Of a DNA stretch of 64,000 nucleotides, positions 7,375 to 56,207 are shown one piece after another. The translations under genes and the position numbers were made by a program. Numbering within the stretch: position 1 is the first letter of the stretch; each line of letters starts with the position of its first letter. This DNA comes from a virus, in IMG/VR virus record IMGVR_UViG_3300005098_000017, positions 1 to 64,000 of that record. One strand, given 5' to 3'. The notes beneath the pieces are model-generated. The model worked only from the letters and a program-made list of their open reading frames with translations. It did no database searches and was not told the origin of the DNA.

Positions 7375-9635
7375 ACTAATGCTCCCTCCTTTATATTGAA
7401 TCCAAACTTCTCCAGTAATTTAGATAATTTATCGGAATAATACTCATATGCAAGATCAATTTTATCCTTCCAATTCGGATCGTACTCTCTATCGACAAGA
7501 TGGTAATGTCTATTTTTATTTACGACATATTCAACCTTCGTGCCGTGTGTTATCTCACTTATCCCATGTCGTTCCATAAGCTGGCGGGCGAGGCGGGCTT
7601 CAACACTATTCTTATTCTTGTACTCATCAGGATGACTCTTTGATATCGATGTAGACATAATAAATTTTTCCACAGGAAACTTTGTAAGATCAAGATACTT
7701 ATGCAATAATGATTGATCCTCACCATAGAATATGACGCGAACAATATCCCATAAACACTCCTTATAGATAGGTGGCTGCTTCGGTGATGCTAAAGCCGAT
7801 CCCTTAAAGATAATGGTATCACCGTCCTTGAGAACATAACTCTTCATAGCTATTGAATACATGGCATCATATTCCTCTTGCTCCATGAATGTTGTGATGT
7901 TTTCTTTATCAATGCCATACTTCTCATGTATATAAGCCGCTACGGCTTCATTTATCTCATTTACATCAACATAATCCGATATATAAACACCATCAGTATC
8001 ATATTCTATGACACTATCTCCAAGCTTATTAATAACGAAACTTATAACATCACGGCAGAAGCCAACTACTGCAATAGCAATGGAAAGATCACCTACCTTG
8101 GAATTTTTGTTTCCATGTATCCCATAGATTGAGTTCATAACAACCTTACGCGCAACCTGAGCTGCTTGTGTCGCTTTATACTCAGGACTATCCTTTTTTA
8201 ACTTTGATAACTTTTTCTTAAGCGTTTTCCTATCGTTGTACATCTCCTTAAGGACAAGACGGTAAATGCTATCAGATGATTGATCTATCTCAACAACAAT
8301 CGTTTTATCAAGATTATCGTCAGGTACCTCTATGATTAAGGATGTATCCTTCCAGTACGCATTAATATTATCTTGGTAATCCTTAACCTCAATAATCTTT
8401 GTTGTATCAGGACCAGCATTTAGTGTTATGAGTGAGTTAGGATAGAAGGAGCTGAAATCGATTTTGTATACAGGTTTGAAGTAACCTTTCTTCTTGACAC
8501 CGATAAGCGCGCCTTGATATTTATTCCATATCTTCTTTGTATTAAATGATGCTATGCGTCCATCCAATCCATATTTCTGTGCATTGGAAAGAAGCCCGAT
8601 AACCTTTTTCTTAAATAAGCCGCGCAGCGTTACGATACGTGGTATAAAGGCAGGATATGAATTCATAATAGCATCAAGAGGTACCTGCATGTATTCAGCT
8701 AGTGCAATAATGTTATCAATGTAACGCATAGCAAGTTGATATGTTAAAATAATGTCATTCTGATGGTATCTTTCTAATTCCTTCGTGCCCACCCATTCAC
8801 TCATGTTCATATGTGGAAGGCGGATGGCTTCATATCCAAAATATTCACCTACCGTCTCCAGCTTTTTATTCTGTAATTTTCCCAGTAGTGATTGATCTTT
8901 GTCAACTGATTCCCATACATCATAATGGAGGAAGCCGCGCGGCTTAATCTCTATTGACGATCCTTCCTGTGTTGCAAGGAATAGACGCTCGAATTCATCT
9001 ATAAGGTCCAATCTTACACATCTTTCATAAATGTAACGCAGATCGAAGTGCTTGGAATAATAACCTGCTAAAACAGTAGGTTTCACCTCTGCAATAGTCC
9101 TAAGAAACCACAGTAATAGTTCCCTTTCCTCCTGTTCTGTGCCTGATGTATATCTTGCTAATAGCCGTTCTCCATCGTAGATACCCAATGCAATAATAGG
9201 GTCTGTATCGTAATTGGCAAATTCGCCTGCATGGCTAAGAACCTCGATATCGAATGATGCTACCCGTACGGTTGATTTACAGTTGAAAAGATGTGGTGCA
9301 AACACATAGAGTGCTTCGTTTGCAGCGAGGTGGAAGTATGGAAGCCGCCCGTTTTTTAAGCGATGCACCTTGCGTCGGAGGTAATTGCGGTCAATTTTGT
9401 TAATGGGAAAACCACATACATCTTCATCAACTCTTCTCGATGCAAAGACACAAATTGAAGCCGGCTCCAATGTTCCAATAACCCTGAAGCGTGTAAGCTC
9501 ATAACGCTGCGAGAATGATGGAACAAAAAGTAGCTCCCCTACCGGTAGTTTAATGTACTTACCATCCTTATAATCTGTGAGAAGGAAGCCTCGCCCTTTT
9601 GCGAAGTATAGCTTAAGTGGTACCGCTATTTGCAT
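7371..9635 (-). CDS. polB: Family B DNA polymerase with 3'-5' exonuclease
   Basis: 754 residues. The exonuclease motifs are FDIE (128-131), GYYSKHFDLRY (191-201) and YHQND (290-294). The polymerase motifs are DFSSFYPN (393-400, motif A), KVVMNSIYG (497-505, motif B) and EYDTDG (544-549, motif C). All expected carboxylates are present, so it should be an active proofreading replicase. The size matches compact archaeal/viral protein- or RNA-primed B polymerases. I see no large TPR1/TPR2-type insertion, so RNA priming is more likely (inference). The start at 9635 follows AAGGAGG by 7-8 nt. The 74-nt gap upstream has a small GCACC/GGTGC hairpin. Confidence 0.95.
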   Translation of the reverse strand: MQIAVPLKLYFAKGRGFLLTDYKDGKYIKLPVGELLFVPSFSQRYELTRFRVIGTLEPASICVFASRRVDEDVCGFPINKIDRNYLRRKVHRLKNGRLPYFHLAANEALYVFAPHLFNCKSTVRVASFDIEVLSHAGEFANYDTDPIIALGIYDGERLLARYTSGTEQEERELLLWFLRTIAEVKPTVLAGYYSKHFDLRYIYERCVRLDLIDEFERLFLATQEGSSIEIKPRGFLHYDVWESVDKDQSLLGKLQNKKLETVGEYFGYEAIRLPHMNMSEWVGTKELERYHQNDIILTYQLAMRYIDNIIALAEYMQVPLDAIMNSYPAFIPRIVTLRGLFKKKVIGLLSNAQKYGLDGRIASFNTKKIWNKYQGALIGVKKKGYFKPVYKIDFSSFYPNSLITLNAGPDTTKIIEVKDYQDNINAYWKDTSLIIEVPDDNLDKTIVVEIDQSSDSIYRLVLKEMYNDRKTLKKKLSKLKKDSPEYKATQAAQVARKVVMNSIYGIHGNKNSKVGDLSIAIAVVGFCRDVISFVINKLGDSVIEYDTDGVYISDYVDVNEINEAVAAYIHEKYGIDKENITTFMEQEEYDAMYSIAMKSYVLKDGDTIIFKGSALASPKQPPIYKECLWDIVRVIFYGEDQSLLHKYLDLTKFPVEKFIMSTSISKSHPDEYKNKNSVEARLARQLMERHGISEITHGTKVEYVVNKNRHYHLVDREYDPNWKDKIDLAYEYYSDKLSKLLEKFGFNIKEGALV

Positions 9636-9709: not shown

Positions 9710-10357
9710 TTACATAATACCAAATGATAGTTCTCTTAAATACTCAATCCCCGTTGCTAGATTATCAAATCTTACATCAATCATTTCATCGATGAATGGA
9801 TGCATATGCTTATCATCTGTTATAACAGCCACTATATGCTTTCGTTGATTGTATGCCCATGCAAGCTCACATATGCATCCTATTGATATATCACTTGTGA
9901 AACCATCTTCGATGATAGCGAATAATATATCCGATTGTGAGATCATCCAGAAGTCGCGCCTCATATGATACTTCATTGAAAGAGCTACCTTGTCAGATCT
10001 TAATCTGATATAAGTATGATTATCTTTACCAACGGGTTGACCCGGAATAGCTGCCTCCTTTAACAGAATAGGTAGGAAAACTTTTAAGCCCGCCGATCTT
10101 AATTCATCAGCTATTGACGATAACCTGTGTTTCACTACATCCCAAGGAAGCCCTGTTATTGGATGCGAAATATAAACAGATAGCTGACGAGTTGCAAATG
10201 TTGGACTTGTATTAACAGTTGCGGGCAATGAGTCATTAATGCCATATGTTGAACCCGTGTTATCCATGTGTTTCCAACATTCCTCTTTACATGGCATCTC
10301 GTAAGGGTAATTAGGGATTATCTGAGGCCAACCGTCTTTTTCAGGATGTTTGCACAT
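9710..10357 (-). CDS. Nucleoside 2-deoxyribosyltransferase-like protein
   Basis: 215 residues from the ATG at 10357, preferred over the GTG at 10363 because AAGGAGG abuts the latter. After a Cys-containing N-terminus comes VYISHPITG, then a helix and GLKVFLP. Near the C-terminus SDILFAI, DGFTSDISIG and CELAWAY follow. This is the Rossmann-like layout of the nucleoside deoxyribosyltransferase/DUF4406 group, with the Glu of CELAWAY as candidate nucleophile. A role in nucleotide salvage or base modification next to the replicase is inferred. Confidence 0.65.
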   Translation of the reverse strand: MCKHPEKDGWPQIIPNYPYEMPCKEECWKHMDNTGSTYGINDSLPATVNTSPTFATRQLSVYISHPITGLPWDVVKHRLSSIADELRSAGLKVFLPILLKEAAIPGQPVGKDNHTYIRLRSDKVALSMKYHMRRDFWMISQSDILFAIIEDGFTSDISIGCICELAWAYNQRKHIVAVITDDKHMHPFIDEMIDVRFDNLATGIEYLRELSFGIM

Positions 10358-12381: not shown

Positions 12382-12565
12382 TCTCTATCTCCTCCTTCTC
12401 TTTTATAATAAAGCCAATATTATTACCGCTGACAACTAAACCAACAATTTCTTTGGTTTCTTCAACCTTCTTTATGAACTCCTCTATACCGTGGCATCTA
12501 TAATATGCCACAGCATCATATGCTTCACCTTCTTTTGAATTAATAAACCAGTAAACCTTTTCCAT
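12374..12565 (-). CDS. Small hypothetical protein
   Basis: 63 residues starting at MEKVYWFI, 7 nt after AAAGGAGG. Mixed alpha/beta composition, acidic C-terminus, no recognised motif. Confidence 0.6.
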   Translation of the reverse strand: MEKVYWFINSKEGEAYDAVAYYRCHGIEEFIKKVEETKEIVGLVVSGNNIGFIIKEKEEIESE

Positions 12566-12612
12566 TGTTACCTCCTTTCTGTCCATGACAACCGGGCATA
12601 AGCCCATTTCCT

Positions 12613-28511: not shown

Positions 28512-29804
28512 CTAATCAATCAATCCCTTTATCTTGTATACCTTGAATCCATCGAATAATCTTATATTCTCTTCATCCGATAGAGCAAACACCCATGTTC
28601 TATCTCCTTTTATCATCTCCAAGCTATCCTGATCACATGGATATCCATCAGTAGCCATGATTTTAACGTCATACTGCTTCCTAGCCGCCTCCTCGAATAC
28701 CGGACGATAGAGAGTACCTCCCGACTTTATATCCATCGCCTCAGGTACCTTTTCATTACCACTTATCCGCAACCATATGTCATCAGAGAAGAATACGATA
28801 TCCAAGTTGCATCTGTTCTTTAGCGGCTTTAGCATGCTGATGAAATACCTAACTTCCTCGTCCGTTATAGATAGAGATGTATCTACAGCAATGAATACAG
28901 ATAGGATAAGTTTCTTGCTTTTCTTTATGAAGCCACGCCTATCCTCTCTATTTAGCCGTATTTTCCTTGTGAACTTCAAGCTATTCATGCCGATAAGATA
29001 TTTTATCAAGTGAACCAGATCCCATTTTTCATCAAGATCAAATGCACCTCTGTTCAATAGATTTCCCACTAAGCCGGCGCCTCTTGACGCCTGGCTCTTA
29101 ATAATCTCTCTATCAGATTTACCTATGCCCGCTTTAGGACAGGATCTGTAGGTATAAGGATAGAGCACAACCGCAGCCGGCCACTCAAAGACGATGTATC
29201 TATCAGACACAACAGCTATTTTATCTTCTATCACATCTATACCAACACTAAATAACCGCTTACCCGATGAAAGAAGATCTTTAAACTTCTTCTGATCGCT
29301 ATCCTTGTTCAGATCAAGCACATAACGATCCTTTAGACTGTCAATTAATTCCTTTGCAACAGTCTTATATTCAATATTATAATCAGGTATCCCGAATGAA
29401 TCAGCATTCACCCCTATCTGCTTATAGTATAATCCGACATAGTAATTAACAACCACATCGAAGACGATATTCCTGAATGCTTGAGCCTCCACTTTATCCT
29501 TCAATCCTGATATCTCATCAACCTTTGCCGCTATCGTTGAATCGAAATGTCCCAGCAAGATGTGCAGTAATTCGTGCACTAATATTGATGCAATATAATC
29601 AGGATCCTTCGACTCTACCGTAACAGGATTCAATACGATTTTCATCTCATCGGTAGCAAACCCTTCGTACCCTATAATGAGATCCCCTTCTTCGCGACTG
29701 CTTGATACCACAATAGGATACTTAGCAAGAAGCATAAGGAGCGCGGGATCCCGGCTCCCTATGCTCATACGCGCATAAGTTAATTTTTTATTTTTATCTA
29801 TCAT
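28512..29804 (-). CDS. VWA-like metallopeptidase (DUF2201 type)
   Basis: 430 residues. Residues 77-86 are HELLHILLGH, an HExxHxxxxH zinc-peptidase site in the N-terminal domain. The C-terminal domain has a MIDAS: DTSLS (308-312), then SGGT (about 369) and ATDG (about 386). This is the architecture of the putative metallopeptidase plus VWA family usually encoded beside MoxR ATPases, as here (TAATG overlap with 29804-30859). Such pairs act in complex assembly or remodelling; the phage role is unknown. Confidence 0.85.
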   Translation of the reverse strand: MIDKNKKLTYARMSIGSRDPALLMLLAKYPIVVSSSREEGDLIIGYEGFATDEMKIVLNPVTVESKDPDYIASILVHELLHILLGHFDSTIAAKVDEISGLKDKVEAQAFRNIVFDVVVNYYVGLYYKQIGVNADSFGIPDYNIEYKTVAKELIDSLKDRYVLDLNKDSDQKKFKDLLSSGKRLFSVGIDVIEDKIAVVSDRYIVFEWPAAVVLYPYTYRSCPKAGIGKSDREIIKSQASRGAGLVGNLLNRGAFDLDEKWDLVHLIKYLIGMNSLKFTRKIRLNREDRRGFIKKSKKLILSVFIAVDTSLSITDEEVRYFISMLKPLKNRCNLDIVFFSDDIWLRISGNEKVPEAMDIKSGGTLYRPVFEEAARKQYDVKIMATDGYPCDQDSLEMIKGDRTWVFALSDEENIRLFDGFKVYKIKGLID

Positions 29805-30859
29805 TATGACCTCTTTTGTTTACGAGATGACTTTCTATACTCCTCGACGACCTCTTTTATTACCTCAAAGTTATCCGGATCCTCCTTCTTAAACCGTGAG
29901 AGGAAGTTATGTATATCAACATTATCGTGTATTGCTAGAGTTCCCGTAAAAATGTCCGGATACTTATCAGCAAGAAATGCTGCCATGTGCCCAGCAAGAG
30001 GGTGATATGTCTGATTATCCATACATTCACTTATAATTCTTGATGTATAGAAGTATAGGAGACCATACTGATCCTTGGGCAATTGTTTCACAAGCGTTGG
30101 ATTCTTCTTCAGCTCATCATACTTCGGGATTTTCTTGTAATCCGACTCGACGAAGCCCTTGATGGCCGCCGCTACCTCAGCACCTACATAGACATCTATG
30201 TGGTCGATAGGAAGCCCCGCCTTCATCATCTCAGAGCAATCCTCTATAGCTCTTGGAGGCACACCCGTCGTATCCGTATCAAGCTTCATGTGCTGGTTAT
30301 AGATCGAGAAGAACATGAGGAGCCTTTCATCCCAGCCTTGTTTAACTCCATATTCAAGGACCTCTTCTACTTTCGGTACCAGCTTTACCTTCGCGCTTCT
30401 CTCTATGAATGCGTCATCCATCTCTATAACAATGTAATTATCTTTGCCCTCTTGGATATTAGCCGTCATAACGATAAATGTGCCTTCTGGAAGCGGGCGT
30501 CCATTGAATGTCTTGTACTGTATAACTTCAAATAATGCCTGCTGTATGAACGGATTACACCTATTTACCTCGTCAATAAGAAACACTGTATTTTCTTTCT
30601 CAGGAAACCAATCAGTATATGTGAATTGAGATTTACCATCTTTCACAATGATTTTTCCAAGCAGATCACCAACATCCTCCATATCGCCGGGCTTAAACTT
30701 CTTGAATGGCAGGCCGTGCTCATCAGCAAATTCTTTAACTATGGCAGTCTTGCCGACTCCTGTTGCACCGACAATAAGCACCGGCTTCCCTGCCTTTCTC
30801 GCAGCAGGTAGAATCATATCTTTTACTTCCTTTATGTTCTTTACTGCATATTCTACCAT
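29804..30859 (-). CDS. MoxR-family AAA+ ATPase
   Basis: 351 residues after AAAAGGAGG. Walker A GATGVGKT (31-38), Walker B VFLIDEVNR (92-100), sensor 1 MTAN and an arginine-rich second region are present. The family remodels protein partners, typically a VWA protein; the adjacent translationally coupled VWA metallopeptidase is the obvious partner. Basic tail (RKSSRKQKRS). Confidence 0.9.
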   Translation of the reverse strand: MVEYAVKNIKEVKDMILPAARKAGKPVLIVGATGVGKTAIVKEFADEHGLPFKKFKPGDMEDVGDLLGKIIVKDGKSQFTYTDWFPEKENTVFLIDEVNRCNPFIQQALFEVIQYKTFNGRPLPEGTFIVMTANIQEGKDNYIVIEMDDAFIERSAKVKLVPKVEEVLEYGVKQGWDERLLMFFSIYNQHMKLDTDTTGVPPRAIEDCSEMMKAGLPIDHIDVYVGAEVAAAIKGFVESDYKKIPKYDELKKNPTLVKQLPKDQYGLLYFYTSRIISECMDNQTYHPLAGHMAAFLADKYPDIFTGTLAIHDNVDIHNFLSRFKKEDPDNFEVIKEVVEEYRKSSRKQKRS

Positions 30860-41726: not shown

Positions 41727-43703
41727 CTACTTATTAGGCCGCCAGCCTGACGCTGTCTTGAATGCGTAGAACAAGCTCTTCGCCTCCTCTTTACTTATAC
41801 CGTTCTTTATCGCGATCTGCTCGATGACCAGATCCTCGTTAGCAGGAAGAGGAACGATATCAATCTCGGATGGATCCTTATCGTCTCTGAATCTGATGAA
41901 GCGCGGCGCCCTTAGTGCTTCCTTGCCAAGATCCATCGCGCGGACTTCGATGACTCTTCCTTTATATTTCTCAGGATGGAGCCACATGTCATCCCTTATT
42001 TCATCTGTGAAGCCGGAGCCGACCATCGCGACTACTTTACCCGTAGCATCAGCTGCTGCTACCTTCCCTGCGGAGTTAGATAATCTTCCTGTACCGGGCA
42101 GAATATCAACGATCTTCAGATCATAGGTATCGAATCTTTTTATCTTGTACCACTTATCCTCTCTTGGCAATCCGTTAGGATCCTTTATAACGATGCCTTC
42201 ACCCAGTGGCAGATCGTCATCGATCATATCGCGGAAGAAGTCGGCGGCCTTATCAGGATCACTGGACTTGAAGTGTATCATCTTTGGCACCGTGAACATC
42301 CTCTTGGTCGCGGCTTCAGGTATTTGGTATTTACCATAATAACTCTCATTAAGAAGCCCGACGATATCCTCGTATATGGTTCTTCTTTCCATGTATGAAG
42401 CCGGCGCTGGTATCAGTACTCCGTCCTCTGTAGCCCATCCGATCCAGTCGAATACCATTAGTCGGATTAAGCCGCGCTCCTTCTGTGCAAGGACGGCATT
42501 CTCGGGACTCGCGTTGAGCATCCCGCTGAGGACATTAGCTCCATCAGGATGCCACAGCTCACCCCGCAGGACCATCCCCACCGCTCGCTCCGGTAGCCAT
42601 AAGCCCGCGCTCATGTGAGGAACATTACCCTCTCTGTGGATCGGATATCCCTCAACGGAATACCTTCTACTTACTACAGTAAGAGTAACAGGCACTCCAT
42701 CAGGCAGATAACCCTCATATTTGAGGAAGGCGCGCTTCAGTGCGTTAATCGCGGCTCTATCTAAGACTGGTTTGACTATAGCTGGCTGGCTTACTTTGAA
42801 CGACGGACCGGGATCCTGACCTCTCTTGGCAGCGGTGAAGACCTTGAGGACCCCGCCGATGGTCCCCACCGCCCGCCCCGCTTCTTCCCGCGGGCTTACT
42901 ATGATTTGATCCTCCGCCTTAAGAACCTCATACTCTCCTGTCTCGAAGAACGGTGCGTTTATTCTTATTATGAAGTTGGCACCATCGACCTTCCGCTCTG
43001 CGATAAGCTCCTTACCTTCCTCGACTCTCTTGGTGACATCCTCCGCTGTTTCGAGGGCTTCATACACTCGCCTCGGGAACCATAATTCCGTAAATCCAGA
43101 ATGACGGATCGCGATATAATTTTTATCTGACACCTTGATGAACTCCCACCAGCCGGACCACGGCTGGTCTGTTCTATATGGTGTGAATACCTCAACAGAT
43201 TTCAGGTTGGATCTTACTACGCCCGGACTTTGGTATTCGATGGTCATTAAGCCGGCGCCGTATTGCCCTTCGGGGATTTCACCTTCGAAGTCCTCTGCTA
43301 GGATTTTATGATCCTGGGATCTTATCACATTTGTTTTCCATCCGCTTGGTTTCTTAGGATTATCGTCAGCATGAAGCGGCGGCTTCTTCTTGAACACGAA
43401 CGATATCAGTCTTTCGCTAGCACTTTTGAGGAGGCGCTGGCTCCGTGTCACAGGATATCTGAACCGGAAGTCCCAGTGAAGCCCCGCCGCCCGCGCCTCA
43501 TGCCTATGCACCGTTACCCTAGTAGGATATGGTTTCAGAGGTCGCAGCTCCATGTTCTTCTTATAGAGCGCCCGCTTAGTGGACCCTTTAATAACACGCT
43601 TTGCGGCTATCTGCGTATACGCTTTAATGAGACCGTTAGTAACAGCCTTATGCAGGAGAGCACCGGTTATCTTCGTACCAAGGGTTGCTGCTATGTGCCA
43701 CAT
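41727..43703 (-). CDS. ATP-dependent DNA ligase with LigD-type phosphoesterase domain
   Basis: 658 residues after AAGGAGG. Residues ~60-165 match the LigD 3'-phosphoesterase domain (HRHEARAAGLHWDFR with His68, His76, Asp78; EDFEGEIPEGQYGAG). The ligase core has AERKVDGANF (nucleophile Lys238), EGIVIKDPNG and KWYKIKR, then an OB-fold ending RAPRFIRFRDDK. It can thus clean 3' ends and seal nicks. No Ku or LigD polymerase domain is nearby, so replication/repair of phage DNA is more likely than NHEJ (inference). Confidence 0.9.
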   Translation of the reverse strand: MWHIAATLGTKITGALLHKAVTNGLIKAYTQIAAKRVIKGSTKRALYKKNMELRPLKPYPTRVTVHRHEARAAGLHWDFRFRYPVTRSQRLLKSASERLISFVFKKKPPLHADDNPKKPSGWKTNVIRSQDHKILAEDFEGEIPEGQYGAGLMTIEYQSPGVVRSNLKSVEVFTPYRTDQPWSGWWEFIKVSDKNYIAIRHSGFTELWFPRRVYEALETAEDVTKRVEEGKELIAERKVDGANFIIRINAPFFETGEYEVLKAEDQIIVSPREEAGRAVGTIGGVLKVFTAAKRGQDPGPSFKVSQPAIVKPVLDRAAINALKRAFLKYEGYLPDGVPVTLTVVSRRYSVEGYPIHREGNVPHMSAGLWLPERAVGMVLRGELWHPDGANVLSGMLNASPENAVLAQKERGLIRLMVFDWIGWATEDGVLIPAPASYMERRTIYEDIVGLLNESYYGKYQIPEAATKRMFTVPKMIHFKSSDPDKAADFFRDMIDDDLPLGEGIVIKDPNGLPREDKWYKIKRFDTYDLKIVDILPGTGRLSNSAGKVAAADATGKVVAMVGSGFTDEIRDDMWLHPEKYKGRVIEVRAMDLGKEALRAPRFIRFRDDKDPSEIDIVPLPANEDLVIEQIAIKNGISKEEAKSLFYAFKTASGWRPNK

Positions 43704-50327: not shown

Positions 50328-50504
50328 TCACGAGCCAACAAGCCGGCCAAACCCTCCGGCACTCTTGCGGCACCGCTCCTCGCAGGCCGCACACAGGGGA
50401 GGAGAGGCTTGGGGAGGCCTCTTAGACCCTCTATGAGGGAGCTCCAGCGCCACGTCAAGGCGGGCCTCCAGTGCTGGAGTAGCCCCCCGGTGCGGGGGCT
50501 TCAT
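50328..50504 (-). CDS. Possible 58-residue ORF overlapping RNA element E4
   Basis: AAAGGAGG lies 9 nt before the ATG, giving a 58-codon frame (MKPPHRGATP start, LCAACEERC near the end), and a GTCAAT box follows its stop like a real gene. But the frame is mostly element E4 and GC-rich fold-backs, and the other E copies are not open in the same frame. Coding is uncertain. Confidence 0.35.
   Translation of the reverse strand: MKPPHRGATPALEARLDVALELPHRGSKRPPQASPPLCAACEERCRKSAGGFGRLVGS
50413..50479 (-). ncRNA. HDV-topology RNA element E4
   Basis: On the - strand: P1 CTCCAGC, P2 GGAGGCC, P3 loop block CGCCTTGACGTGG, P1' GCTGGAG, CT, P4 CCCTC-ATA-GAGGG, TCTAAGA, P2' GGCCTCC. Preceded by an AGCCCCCG/CGGGGGGCT hairpin and GCTA. 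Lies between the polymerase-like gene and 49856-50221. Confidence 0.7.
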
Positions 50505-50577: not shown

Positions 50578-52980
50578 TTAATCAAGTTTCCAGAAGTTGA
50601 GCCAGAATTCGCGATCGGCAGTAGCAAGAGGATGAAGACCAACAGGGGTTTTGATTCCAAGAATCCGCGCGAGCTGCCAGTTGCGCTTCTTACCAGTATG
50701 CAGTTCTACAAGAAAGCGTACATGTGCTTCAAGATCAGATTCAGTACCGGCAACAATAGCCAAGAAATCGCTCTCAGCGACAGTAAGAGATTTCCAAGTG
50801 GTAAGAATCGCCTGAGGTTCAAATCTAGCAAGAAGCCTGCGGAAACGCCTGTTTAGCCTCCGGAAGTTCCTAGTAAGAAGTACACGAAGTTCAGATACTT
50901 TACTCGCAAGGAAGCGCCGACGCCTGTCGAGCTCTCTGCGCCGCCTGCCAAGGGTAGCCAGAGCATCAGAAAGGTGATCAAGCCTAGGTAGCAGCCACTT
51001 TTCCATTTTTCGCCTCAGAACTTCGTTTCTGATCCCAGATGCTAGGAACCTGACTTTAGTTTCAGGTCTCGCATTAGCGAAGAGTCTACGGCTCCGATTA
51101 ACTACCGTATCAATCGCCGTTACTTTCTCTGCAAGAGCATTCACTTCATTCTCTATCTTCCGTATTCGAGAGAGCGTCCGTCCGAACATGCGCCTCCTTA
51201 TGCGATCCCACTTGAGGAACAATGCCTTAACTTCTGGATCAATGGTGCCATCAGGAATAAGATCCTTAAGAGACCTAACCTCTGGCTCAGCAAACTCAAC
51301 TTCAGGAATAAATTCAGCAAGAGGACCTGTTGGAGTTATTGCTACTGGATCCGCCTTCGCAGTCCTATTAGCGATCATTTGAGTAACAGTATCAAGCCTG
51401 GCAGTCGTACTCGCGAGTAGATGCAGTCCCGCTTCTACCTCATGACGAAGCTCCGGTTCTTTACCATTAGCAAGATTCACTGCAGCTTGGAGTAGCGCTC
51501 CAGTTCTCGCAACAAGATCCATATTAAGTTCAGTATCAGAAAGAAGCATTCGGGTAAAACCAGCATCAGCTCTCGCAATCATTTCCTTACCCAGCTCAAT
51601 ATTTTCCACTTCGGTACTAGGATCCATTCTCCACTCTCCGAAAGATATCTCCTTTATCCGGCTTCGTACGCTATCGAAGAATTCCTTAGCAACGAGAGGT
51701 TCCTTGAAGACCTTGGATGCCGCGGCGAGAGCCACTTTGTCGCCATCGGCATCCCATCCGCTAGGCATATCTGCAGGGTGTACCAGAATCGCATGCGCAC
51801 GATGGTCAACAATAATAGGAAGGATAAGAGTATCACCAGGCAAGATGGGCGACTTCTGTATGAGTAGGAGTTCTCCATCTTTCAGACCAAGCATCCGTGC
51901 AATCACAGGAGGAATAACAGCAGTGCCGGGATGTGCATTCTGAAATCCCAGATAGAAGCCCGGGCCTAGTCTCAACTTCCGAAGTGCAATCTTTAAGTGG
52001 TCCAGAAGCACTCTCCGCAGGAAGCCTGCCTCCTTTATGAGGCCGAATTTCCGCAGAATATCAGCAGTCAGAGTCAGCACTGCACTAGGTTCATTGATCG
52101 GATCAGCGTTTTTAACAAGGATATCAGCCGCTACCTCAGGATCAGAAAAACCATTAATAGCTTCAGCAATCTGCTCCTGAATCCGTTCAACAAACTCAGG
52201 CGCTGGATTAACATTCCATCCGAGTTTCCTTGGTAGAAGGAACCAGCGCGGCAGAGCTTGGCTGAGACTGATGCCGCCCGCGAATACGGCACCAACCTCA
52301 TGCAGCATGATGGTTCGCCCGAGTTCGAGTACGAAGCGCCGCCTCTTGATGAGTTTTGCGGTGTCAGCATCAGCAACGATATCAGTCCCTGTTTCCAGCT
52401 CCGTGAGGACCTCATCTGCAAGAGCTTCATTTCCAAGATACAACATCAGCCTCTGGAACCCAACTCTGCCGGGAAGAACTGGTACCGCTATCCCTTTCAG
52501 ACCAATAGCAGTCACTTTAAATCCATTCTTCACAAGAGCACGGGTAACCTTAGAAACCTCAGCCTCTGTAGGAGCATATGCTGCTGCCACAAGTTTTGTA
52601 AACCGTTCGCTAACGAAGAAGATCCCATCCACATTCATTTTCATATTGAGCTTGAGACCACGGATGCGAAGATCCATACCAGCCACACGTTCCGGCTTGA
52701 AATCCCAGCCTTTATTCGGAATTTCCGGCGTTGTCATCATCTGGATGCGCTTTCCAGGAAGAGATCTCAGATCAAATTCAGGATCACCGAGAATATTCGC
52801 AATCACTCTATTAACAGTCTCTATAGCAGAAGTAGGAACCACCTTGAAGATCCTACAATCTGGAATCATAGTAGGCTTCATTGGAAGATCAGAGTTCAGA
52901 TCAGGATCAAATGCGAAGAAGACACTAGCACCAGCTTCAGTAAATAACGCTTGCAGAGGAGACCTCGGTATTCTTTCCAT
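50578..52980 (-). CDS. RNA polymerase-like protein with DxDGD metal motif
   Basis: 800 residues; AAAGGAGG is 7 nt before the ATG at 52980 (an ATG at 52983 is also possible). Residues ~365-420 read GTAVIPPVIARMLGL, LIQKSPILPGD, LVHPADMPSGWDADGDKVALAA. This matches the double-psi beta-barrel of RNA polymerase beta' (RxPxLH, then NADFDGDxMAVH), with Asp410, 412 and 414 as metal ligands. GLKGIAVPVL (160-169) may be the partner Lys barrel (GNKGxxS in beta); this is weaker. A ~230-residue Arg/Lys-rich coiled-coil region ends the protein. Length and single chain recall YonO-like phage polymerases. Codons are more GC-rich than in neighbours. Confidence 0.65.
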   Translation of the reverse strand: MERIPRSPLQALFTEAGASVFFAFDPDLNSDLPMKPTMIPDCRIFKVVPTSAIETVNRVIANILGDPEFDLRSLPGKRIQMMTTPEIPNKGWDFKPERVAGMDLRIRGLKLNMKMNVDGIFFVSERFTKLVAAAYAPTEAEVSKVTRALVKNGFKVTAIGLKGIAVPVLPGRVGFQRLMLYLGNEALADEVLTELETGTDIVADADTAKLIKRRRFVLELGRTIMLHEVGAVFAGGISLSQALPRWFLLPRKLGWNVNPAPEFVERIQEQIAEAINGFSDPEVAADILVKNADPINEPSAVLTLTADILRKFGLIKEAGFLRRVLLDHLKIALRKLRLGPGFYLGFQNAHPGTAVIPPVIARMLGLKDGELLLIQKSPILPGDTLILPIIVDHRAHAILVHPADMPSGWDADGDKVALAAASKVFKEPLVAKEFFDSVRSRIKEISFGEWRMDPSTEVENIELGKEMIARADAGFTRMLLSDTELNMDLVARTGALLQAAVNLANGKEPELRHEVEAGLHLLASTTARLDTVTQMIANRTAKADPVAITPTGPLAEFIPEVEFAEPEVRSLKDLIPDGTIDPEVKALFLKWDRIRRRMFGRTLSRIRKIENEVNALAEKVTAIDTVVNRSRRLFANARPETKVRFLASGIRNEVLRRKMEKWLLPRLDHLSDALATLGRRRRELDRRRRFLASKVSELRVLLTRNFRRLNRRFRRLLARFEPQAILTTWKSLTVAESDFLAIVAGTESDLEAHVRFLVELHTGKKRNWQLARILGIKTPVGLHPLATADREFWLNFWKLD

Positions 52981-52997
52981 CATATCACCTCCTTTCC

Positions 52998-53124
52998 GCC
53001 GCGGATTTCGTTGCCCTCGGTGCGGCACTCCGAGGGTCGCCGGGCTTCGAGCGTCATTGGTGCCAAGGCTGGCCATAGAATGAAGCCCGGAAATTCTATG
53101 GCCATGGCCGGGCGCCTTGACACC
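52998..53124 (-). promoter_or_regulatory. Double pseudoknot leader PK5 of the polymerase-like gene
   Basis: PK5a (53040-53124): GGCCATAGAAT/ATTCTATGGCC interleaved with CCGGGCTTC/GAAGCCCGG, and an outer GGTGTCAAGGC/GCCTTGGCACC arm. PK5b (52998-53036): CCCTCGG/CCGAGGG interleaved with GCCGC/GCGGC, third loop CAACGAAATCC. It ends 18 nt before the start codon. Confidence 0.6.
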
Positions 53125-53155
53125 TCTGCTCTTTCGCGCATTTTATTTAACCTTA

Positions 53156-53627: not shown

Positions 53628-53699
53628 GAGGGACTCTTAGATCCCGCATAAGCGGGAAGCCCCGGCGCCACGACAAGGCGGTCCCTCAAAAAGCCGGGG
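53628..53699 (-). ncRNA. HDV-topology RNA element E5
   Basis: P1 CCCCGGC, J TTTTT, P2 GAGGGAC, CGCCTTGTCGTGG, P1' GCCGGGG, CT, P4 TCCCGC-TTAT-GCGGGA, TCTAAGA, P2' GTCCCTC. P1 begins on the base right after the TAA stop of 53700-54170. The A-to-T change in the P3 loop is the only deviation in that block. Confidence 0.7.
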
Positions 53700-54170
53700 T
53701 TAACTCAATTTGACATCATTATTATCCTTCTCTTTCTTTATCCACTCTATCAATTCATCCACTAGGCGCTCCACATTATAATCATCAATAATAAGAAGCG
53801 CCCTCCTGACCTTGTAGCCGAGCACCTCATGCGCTTTTAGCACATGCCTCGGCATCCAAGGCCAGGTCTCATTGTATCCCCCATTATATTTGATTTGGAG
53901 AAGGATTACCTCCTTCTTATGGGGGATACCAATGCTGACGTCGATTTTAAATACGACGTCAGCTTTACTCCCGACAGGATAGTCTATTAATTTCCATCCC
54001 GCCGGAAGCTTGGAGGATAGTTCTTCAATGAATCTATCCTCCGCTTCGAAGCCAGCTCTATGCGCCTCATGTGCGATAGAGCTAACCTCGAAATCCGGGC
54101 GGATTATTTCATGACATTCCGCCCAGAATTTTCGCGCTATAGTGCGGGCCTTCTCCATTTCATTTCTCAT
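53700..54170 (-). CDS. PD-(D/E)XK-like nuclease, possibly inactive
   Basis: 156 residues after TGGAGGAG. AGFEAEDRFIEEL, then GSKADVVFKIDV and ILLQIKYNG follow the PD-(D/E)XK core, but the Glu of ExK is Gln (QIK). An alternative carboxylate may substitute. Assignment is by pattern. Confidence 0.5.
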   Translation of the reverse strand: MRNEMEKARTIARKFWAECHEIIRPDFEVSSIAHEAHRAGFEAEDRFIEELSSKLPAGWKLIDYPVGSKADVVFKIDVSIGIPHKKEVILLQIKYNGGYNETWPWMPRHVLKAHEVLGYKVRRALLIIDDYNVERLVDELIEWIKKEKDNNDVKLS

Positions 54171-55213: not shown

Positions 55214-55234
55214 TCACAACATCCCCTTTTATTA

Positions 55235-55310
55235 GGGTGCTCTTAGACCCTTAGGGATTGGACCTAAGGGAGCCCCTCCACCACGTCAAGGTGGCACCCT
55301 ATCGGAGGGG
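55235..55310 (-). ncRNA. HDV-topology RNA element E1
   Basis: P1 CCCCTCC, P2 GGGTGC, CACCTTGACGTGG, P1' GGAGGGG, CT, P4 CCCTTAGG/CCTAAGGG, TCTAAGA, P2' GCACCC. Preceded by an AGCGGGGT/ACCCCGCT hairpin (55312-55332) ending GCT-A. Between 55364-55570 and 54234-55070. Confidence 0.75.
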
Positions 55311-55363
55311 TAGCGGGGTCTTGGACCCCGCTCTTGACTCTTGAGGCCGGCCGGTTTATTTTT

Positions 55364-55659: not shown

Positions 55660-55734
55660 GGACACTCTTAGACCCTTAGGGATTGGACCTAAGGGAGCCC
55701 TCCAGCCACGTCAAGGCGGTGTCCTTCTGGAGGG
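55660..55734 (-). ncRNA. HDV-topology RNA element E2
   Basis: P1 CCCTCCAG, P2 GGACAC, CGCCTTGACGTGG, P1' CTGGAGGG, CT, P4 CCCTTAGG/CCTAAGGG, TCTAAGA, P2' GTGTCC. Preceded by an AGCAAGG/CCTTGCT hairpin ending GCT-A. Confidence 0.75.
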
Positions 55735-55786
55735 TAGCAAGGCCATCATGTGAGACCTTGCTTTGGCTTGGGCGGCAAATCCTTCC

Positions 55787-56066: not shown

Positions 56067-56084
56067 CTTGCCGCCCAAGCCATC

Positions 56085-56154
56085 GGACGCTCTTAGACCT
56101 AGCCACAAGGCTAGGAGCCCCTCCACCACGTCAAGGTGGCGTCCGTCGGAGGGG
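56085..56154 (-). ncRNA. HDV-topology RNA element E3
   Basis: P1 CCCCTCC, P2 GGACGC, CACCTTGACGTGG, P1' GGAGGGG, CT, P4 CCTAGCC-TTGT-GGCTAGG, TCTAAGA, P2' GCGTCC. Preceded by a GCAAGGCC/GGTCTTGC hairpin ending GCT-A. Confidence 0.75.
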
Positions 56155-56207
56155 TAGCAAGACCCCAAGGGGCCTTGCCTCGTCTACGGGGGCGCCAATA
56201 GACCGTA

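Follow-up and report, generated by a model that had tools for sequence, protein, structure and literature searches.

Results

The window analyzed here, 64,000 nucleotides long, forms the start of a virus record of 147,433 bases (G000) that encodes a terminase, a portal, a capsid-like protein, a family B DNA polymerase (PolB) and a ribonucleotide reductase, and therefore belongs to a tailed virus. The candidate RNA polymerase (RNAP), P0001, is encoded on its minus strand by a stop-terminated ORF of 800 aa (50578..52980). Two in-frame ATGs lie upstream, one only 3 nt away at 52983, which is an alternative start, and another at 53076; since a strong Shine-Dalgarno sequence, AAAGGAGGTGAT, lies immediately 5′ of the ATGATG, we place the start at 52983/52980. 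P0001 is encoded by a stand-alone gene within a leftward non-structural block that also contains small ORFs, an RNase H gene and a DNA ligase gene; the head and tail genes lie far away, and the structural genes downstream have the opposite orientation. The GC content of the ORF is 48%, that of its flanks about 45–46% and that of its leader 62%, so that the higher GC attributed to this gene in an earlier note holds as a slight difference and is not marked for the ORF.

Side observations concern other genes of the window. The ATP-dependent DNA ligase (41727-43703, minus strand) has a LigD-type 3′-phosphoesterase-like N-terminal domain, which falls below the Pfam cut-off for LigD_N, and a MoxR-like AAA ATPase adjoins a DUF2201/VWA metallopeptidase-like gene at 28512-30859 (minus strand), here in a phage. 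Farther along the record, the terminase large subunit (L004:1842-4388, corresponding to G000 85842-88388) contains an insertion of about 220 residues that splits its phage matches (41-218 and 437-802) and is possibly an intein.

The sole relative of P0001 in IMG/VR, L001, is encoded on a 175,796-base contig, G006. This contig and the record are largely colinear, with about 96% nucleotide identity, and following PolB and the portal led to relatives within the same phage species complex (96–100%). The metagenome of this relative (IMG 3300014911) belongs to a study of Guaymas Basin sediment, a hydrothermal site (PMC6478937). The two proteins share 90% of their amino acids, and the codon changes between them comprise 134 synonymous and 76 non-synonymous ones, from which we conclude that the gene is coding. 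At the DNA level, identity to L001 (10001-12397) is 98–100% over codons 201–400, 70% over codons 101–150 and 70–85% near both gene ends, a mosaic that suggests recent recombination between phages. Because codons 201–400 are near-identical as part of this mosaic, conservation of the catalytic barrel described below cannot serve as evidence. As to the host, the viral PolB is, among solved structures, closest to archaeal PolB, the best matches of the terminase are to a Moorella phage, other bacterial phages and a haloarchaeal virus, and a search through TnpB gave no assignment.

Upstream of the gene lies a leader (52984..53130, minus strand) that is structured (z = −2.0) and near-invariant relative to L001 across about 130 nt, the first 50 codons of P0001 being 84.7% identical. 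An upstream ORF of 53 aa (52980..53141, minus strand) covers the same region, and its TGA overlaps the P0001 start in the ATGATG, a possible case of translational coupling. Its counterpart at L001 9837-10001 is nearly identical (53-54 aa in the two copies), and neither phages nor plasmids contain a match to it. The leader, via which P0001 expression appears to be controlled, could owe its conservation either to RNA structure or to translational coupling.

The same neighbourhood contains a repeated structured RNA element, found on the minus strand of the window at 50413-50483, 53628-53703, 55234-55314, 55660-55739 and 56084-56160, and in L001 at 7943-8018, 8455-8535, 9730-9812 and 12498-12569. 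It has the core CCRCCTTGACGTGG and the tail CTAAGAG, and clusters only around the candidate RNAP gene. Its 6-bp outer helix shows two-sided compensatory changes at 6/6 pairs with 100% pairing, and the covariation score is reached by 0/500 shuffles. Together with a further helix recognized by eye, the element has a double-pseudoknot layout like that of HDV-type ribozymes, with C-U-A-A at J4/2; a G at +1 is absent, and Rfam returned no match.

Searches with the whole protein found no match for P0001 in Pfam, PHROGs, NCBIfam, PDB sequences, phage records, plasmids, or bacterial and archaeal genomes; weak Pfam matches (DUF1259 and a MazE/AbrB-like domain) were under threshold and were rejected. 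Established enzymes meet with the same blindness. The proteins gp64 and gp96 of Thermus phage P23-45 are RNAPs proven biochemically and structurally (PMC10770324), and YonO of Bacillus phage SPbeta is a proven DNA-dependent RNAP (PMC5467207). Pfam and NCBIfam nonetheless return nothing for YonO or gp64, and several proven members of the superfamily have a mutual local similarity that does not rise above shuffles, in keeping with the report that many RNAP families lack significant similarity outside a small region around DxDxD (PMC10770324). The proven RNAP gp64 is itself labelled “head protein” in PHROGs (phrog_25317) and in the RefSeq records NC_009803 and NC_009804. Comparison by hhalign with 2-3 sequences was uninformative for P0001, and no further relative emerged when IMG/VR was scanned by motif for intermediates. 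AlphaFold models were unusable because the alignments were too shallow, with a mean pLDDT of 36 when the 90% homolog was included and 34 when a gp96 row was added.

In BLASTP of P0001 against gp96 (E=0.004) and gp64 (E=0.05), each E-value being that of a single pairwise comparison, the top segment coincides with the catalytic barrel and aligns the aspartates. This segment lies within a putative DPBB-A, or β′-like catalytic barrel, at residues 340-420 (51721..51963, minus strand), a placement that also draws on the anchored test and the profile ranking given below. It contains LGLKDGE at residues 364-370 (51871..51891, minus strand), followed after 7 more residues by P378, in a pattern common with gp96, and DADGD at residues 410-414 (51739..51753, minus strand), whose putative metal-binding triad D410/D412/D414 is aligned to DFDGD of gp96 and DYDGD of gp64. 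The three aspartates had been correctly placed in the earlier note, WDADGD being found at residues 409-414; the segment LIQKSPIL, which it put within residues 385-420, is actually at 373-380. An EF-hand, considered for the DADGD loop, was rejected, as there is no Gly at position 6 and no acidic residue at 12.

Because DADGD had drawn attention to P0001, the motif was left out of an anchored extension test in which the 75 residues upstream of it were scored. The flank of P0001 scored 41 against gp96 and 31 against gp64, and 0/4000 random anchors from other proteins of the same genome reached these values (background maxima 29 and 23, respectively). The two proven homologs gp96 and gp64 score 28 against each other, below the 41 of P0001 and gp96. 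Against seven other references (a gp64 relative, YonO types and gp66), the flank was at background. The block common to P0001 and gp96 can be written LGLK[DE]G[DE]x7P...SGxDxDGD and is loosely seen in the crAss-type RNAP. When 2.9 million viral contigs of IMG/VR were scanned for the upstream barrel pattern without DxDGD, 77 stretches were found, containing 70 coding matches; among these, only the P0001 family, gp96 and L061/L085/L104 had DxDGD within the next 70 residues. The last three, all of one kind, are giant proteins of phages, up to 3713 aa long, with an apparent crAss-type RNAP barrel carrying DMDGD. Finally, an HMM profile of known barrels from which P0001 was left out, searched against 3144 ORFs, ranked the P0001 family directly behind the training enzymes and one YonO-type RNAP, ahead of YonO itself and of decoys preselected for PxGxDxDGD-like motifs; its E of about 0.3 is weak alone, and the useful part is the rank relative to the decoys. 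P0001 was absent from the top 22 of a second barrel profile that included YonO types.

In proven enzymes a second barrel lies upstream, with DG...KG and a catalytic lysine. A corresponding block is present in P0001, with VDG at residues 117-119 and GLKG at 160-163 (52492..52503, minus strand), its gp96 counterpart being GDG...AGLKG. The four residues GLKG are identical in gp96, and K162 is the putative catalytic lysine. We assign this block to a putative DPBB-B, or β-like barrel, at residues 105-190 (VDGIFFVS...FKVTAIGLKGIAVPVLPG; 52411..52668, minus strand), on the strength of a KG-anchored test and a MAFFT alignment. The KG-anchored score summed over gp96, gp64, PMBT24 and YonO was 42, a value reached by 0/2474 fragments (background maximum 34). 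Against YonO alone it was 19 (background maximum 11), and against gp96, gp64 and PMBT24 taken singly it was unexceptional. An unguided MAFFT alignment placed DG, GLKG, LGLK[DE]G[DE] and DxDGD in register between P0001 and gp96. The KG is invariant within the YonO alignment; the YonO family also has an invariant Arg ahead of KG, where P0001 has T157, with K155 two positions earlier. Hence two hallmarks of the two-barrel superfamily, the DxDGD triad and a DPBB-B upstream in the same chain (DG...KG, residues 118-163), are found in P0001 at the level of sequence, and its DG, KG, [RK]xP and DxDGD have the same order and spacing as in proven RNAPs. The single-chain RNAP proposed in the earlier note thereby gains support from flank statistics in which DADGD played no part and from a second block that its author had not seen. 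Of the kinship suggested there, the two-barrel RNAP part stands, and the nearest enzymes by BLASTP and anchored scores are gp96 and gp64 rather than β′ or YonO.

With soft gaps, semi-global alignment of the P0001 core (residues 70-445) to gp64 beat 800/800 controls (z 5.1-5.4); with stiff gaps, it beat nearly all of them (z 3.9-4.1). Against gp96, the core beat 400/400 genome fragments with soft gaps (z 2.7) and was not above controls with stiff gaps, the likeness to gp96 being weak beyond the barrels. Among the ORFs of at least 300 aa in its own genome, P0001 is the top-scoring one against both enzymes. A plain local alignment of P0001 and gp96 falls off-motif, in helical regions, and was excluded as evidence. 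With regard to known families, the full-length YonO profile (A3) gives P0001 an E of 330 at rank 232, P0001 is not among the best matches of the full-length profile (A2) of the gp64 family (phrog_25317), no PHROG matches it, and for cellular β′, a search of the record with PF04997 gives no Rpb1-type subunit and no PDB sequence matches.

Beyond the barrels, no motif match by eye to a bridge helix or to the N-terminal part of a trigger loop was seen within residues 425-540, where they are expected. The C-terminal region (residues 580-735; 50776..51243, minus strand) is Arg-rich and predicted to be long-helical. As the earlier note had stated, it is basic, with a pI of 12.0 and 42 K+R (33 of them Arg) vs 16 D+E. 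Its helices in the AF2 model are of low confidence, the best blocks reaching a pLDDT of 50-67.

Discussion

Taken together, these comparisons make it very likely that P0001 is a highly divergent single-chain two-barrel RNAP, and most likely a non-virion one, transcribing phage genes. We infer its fold, Mg2+ binding, DNA-dependent transcription and non-virion role from sequence and gene context. In the model that we propose, residues about 105-190 would form a β-like barrel with the catalytic lysine K162, and residues about 340-420 a β′-like barrel whose loop carries D410/D412/D414. These aspartates would bind the Mg2+ ions that catalyze phosphodiester bond formation, and, together with K162, would support DNA-templated RNA synthesis as for gp64, gp96 and YonO. 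The Arg-rich helical C terminus (580-735) probably takes over from the clamp, as a clamp-like arm, or binds nucleic acid. The enzyme would be made early or in mid infection and, like P23-45 gp64, would transcribe a class of phage genes.

Among known systems, this non-virion RNAP gp64 (PDB 8f72/8f5m) is, like P0001, a stand-alone single chain encoded in a non-structural gene block, in a similar size range (616 vs 800 aa) and with the same motif order; identity is at motif level only, and full-length similarity is undetectable. The virion RNAP gp96 (PDB 8h2m/8h2n) shares with P0001 the LGLK[DE]G[DE]x7P...SGxDxDGD-type barrel, the DG...GLKG block and a DPBB-B preceding DPBB-A in one chain. It differs in being fused to a 5002-aa tape measure protein, in being without a clamp and in having DFDGD, whereas P0001 has a separate gene, an Arg-rich helical C terminus and DADGD. 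YonO is likewise a single chain, of about 840 aa, with the motifs TDGxG...KG and RSP...DNDGDK; compared with it, the second block of P0001 is above background and the DPBB-A flank at background. The same single-chain superfamily also includes gp66 of the crAss-like phage phi14:2 and the crAss-type giants L061/L085/L104, and the L085 group has LGFKEGDx7P with DMDGD 35 residues on, akin to the P0001 pattern. Unlike P0001, the crAss-type systems are giant virion proteins, and gp66 itself carries DFDID. QDE-1 and cellular RNA-dependent RNAPs belong to the same two-barrel single-chain fold class; QDE-1, which unlike P0001 is eukaryotic and acts in RNA silencing, presumably resembles it in the motifs of both barrels.

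In a variant that differs in role, P0001 would be injected together with the DNA as a virion RNAP, like gp96 or crAss gp66. Its DPBB-A is indeed closest to gp96, and the record yielded no second DxDGD polymerase candidate; the colinear G006 has a single additional DxDGD ORF (1098 aa), which is not conserved as such in G000. The gene, however, is neither fused to nor adjoining structural genes. Because it stands alone in a leftward non-structural block, opposite to them, we favor the non-virion role and regard injection with the virion as unlikely. Alternatively, a two-barrel protein descended from RNAPs might do another job, as a primase-like or RNA-templated polymerase, or as an inactive DNA-binding or regulatory derivative. 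The superfamily does include RNA-dependent RNAPs (QDE-1) and DNA polymerase D (PMC10770324; PMC4996933), the C terminus is strongly basic, and a non-exhaustive search identified no primase; yet P0001 retains all three of the aspartates together with the KG lysine, the genome has its own family B DNA polymerase, and the nearest barrels are those of DNA-dependent phage RNAPs, so that we judge such a job quite unlikely.

That DADGD arose by chance in an unrelated structural or regulatory phage protein would agree with the lack of database matches, the marginal E-values and the unusable structure models. It is nevertheless highly improbable, given a similarity beyond the motif that is unmatched by 4000 anchors for one barrel and 2474 for the other, an upstream-pattern scan that proved RNAP-specific, and DG, KG, [RK]xP and DxDGD arranged as in proven RNAPs. 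An ordinary β′ fragment or msRNAP subunit partnering a separate β subunit, which the β′ DxDGD motif might bring to mind, is scarcely credible with both barrel blocks within one chain, no Rpb1-type subunit found by PF04997 in the record and no cellular-RNAP match among PDB sequences.

Returning to P0001 as a single-chain two-barrel RNAP, the superfamily hallmarks in its sequence, combined with the failed assignments to YonO, gp64 and β′, make it a probable new family of this known superfamily, and its ancestry looks to be shared with the transcription machine of all cells. A bolder possibility, which we put forward tentatively and consider doubtful, is that it is a deeply diverged new RNAP family, apart from the solved families compared here, and that the tailed virus carrying it is thermophilic and may infect an archaeon. 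The hint at an archaeal host comes from the hydrothermal Guaymas sediment in which the relative was found and from a PolB closest, among solved structures, to archaeal PolB. We know of no archaeal virus with its own RNAP, and if the host is archaeal, P0001 would be the first.

Single-chain two-barrel RNAPs are few and barely recognizable by sequence, and they are central to the question of whether such enzymes arose by reduction from cellular RNAP or are relics predating it. P0001 would add a further orphan lineage, and a small, probably thermostable and tractable enzyme with which to approach their origin. It also illustrates that such polymerases escape sequence searches, and the anchored-flank approach used here could reveal others.
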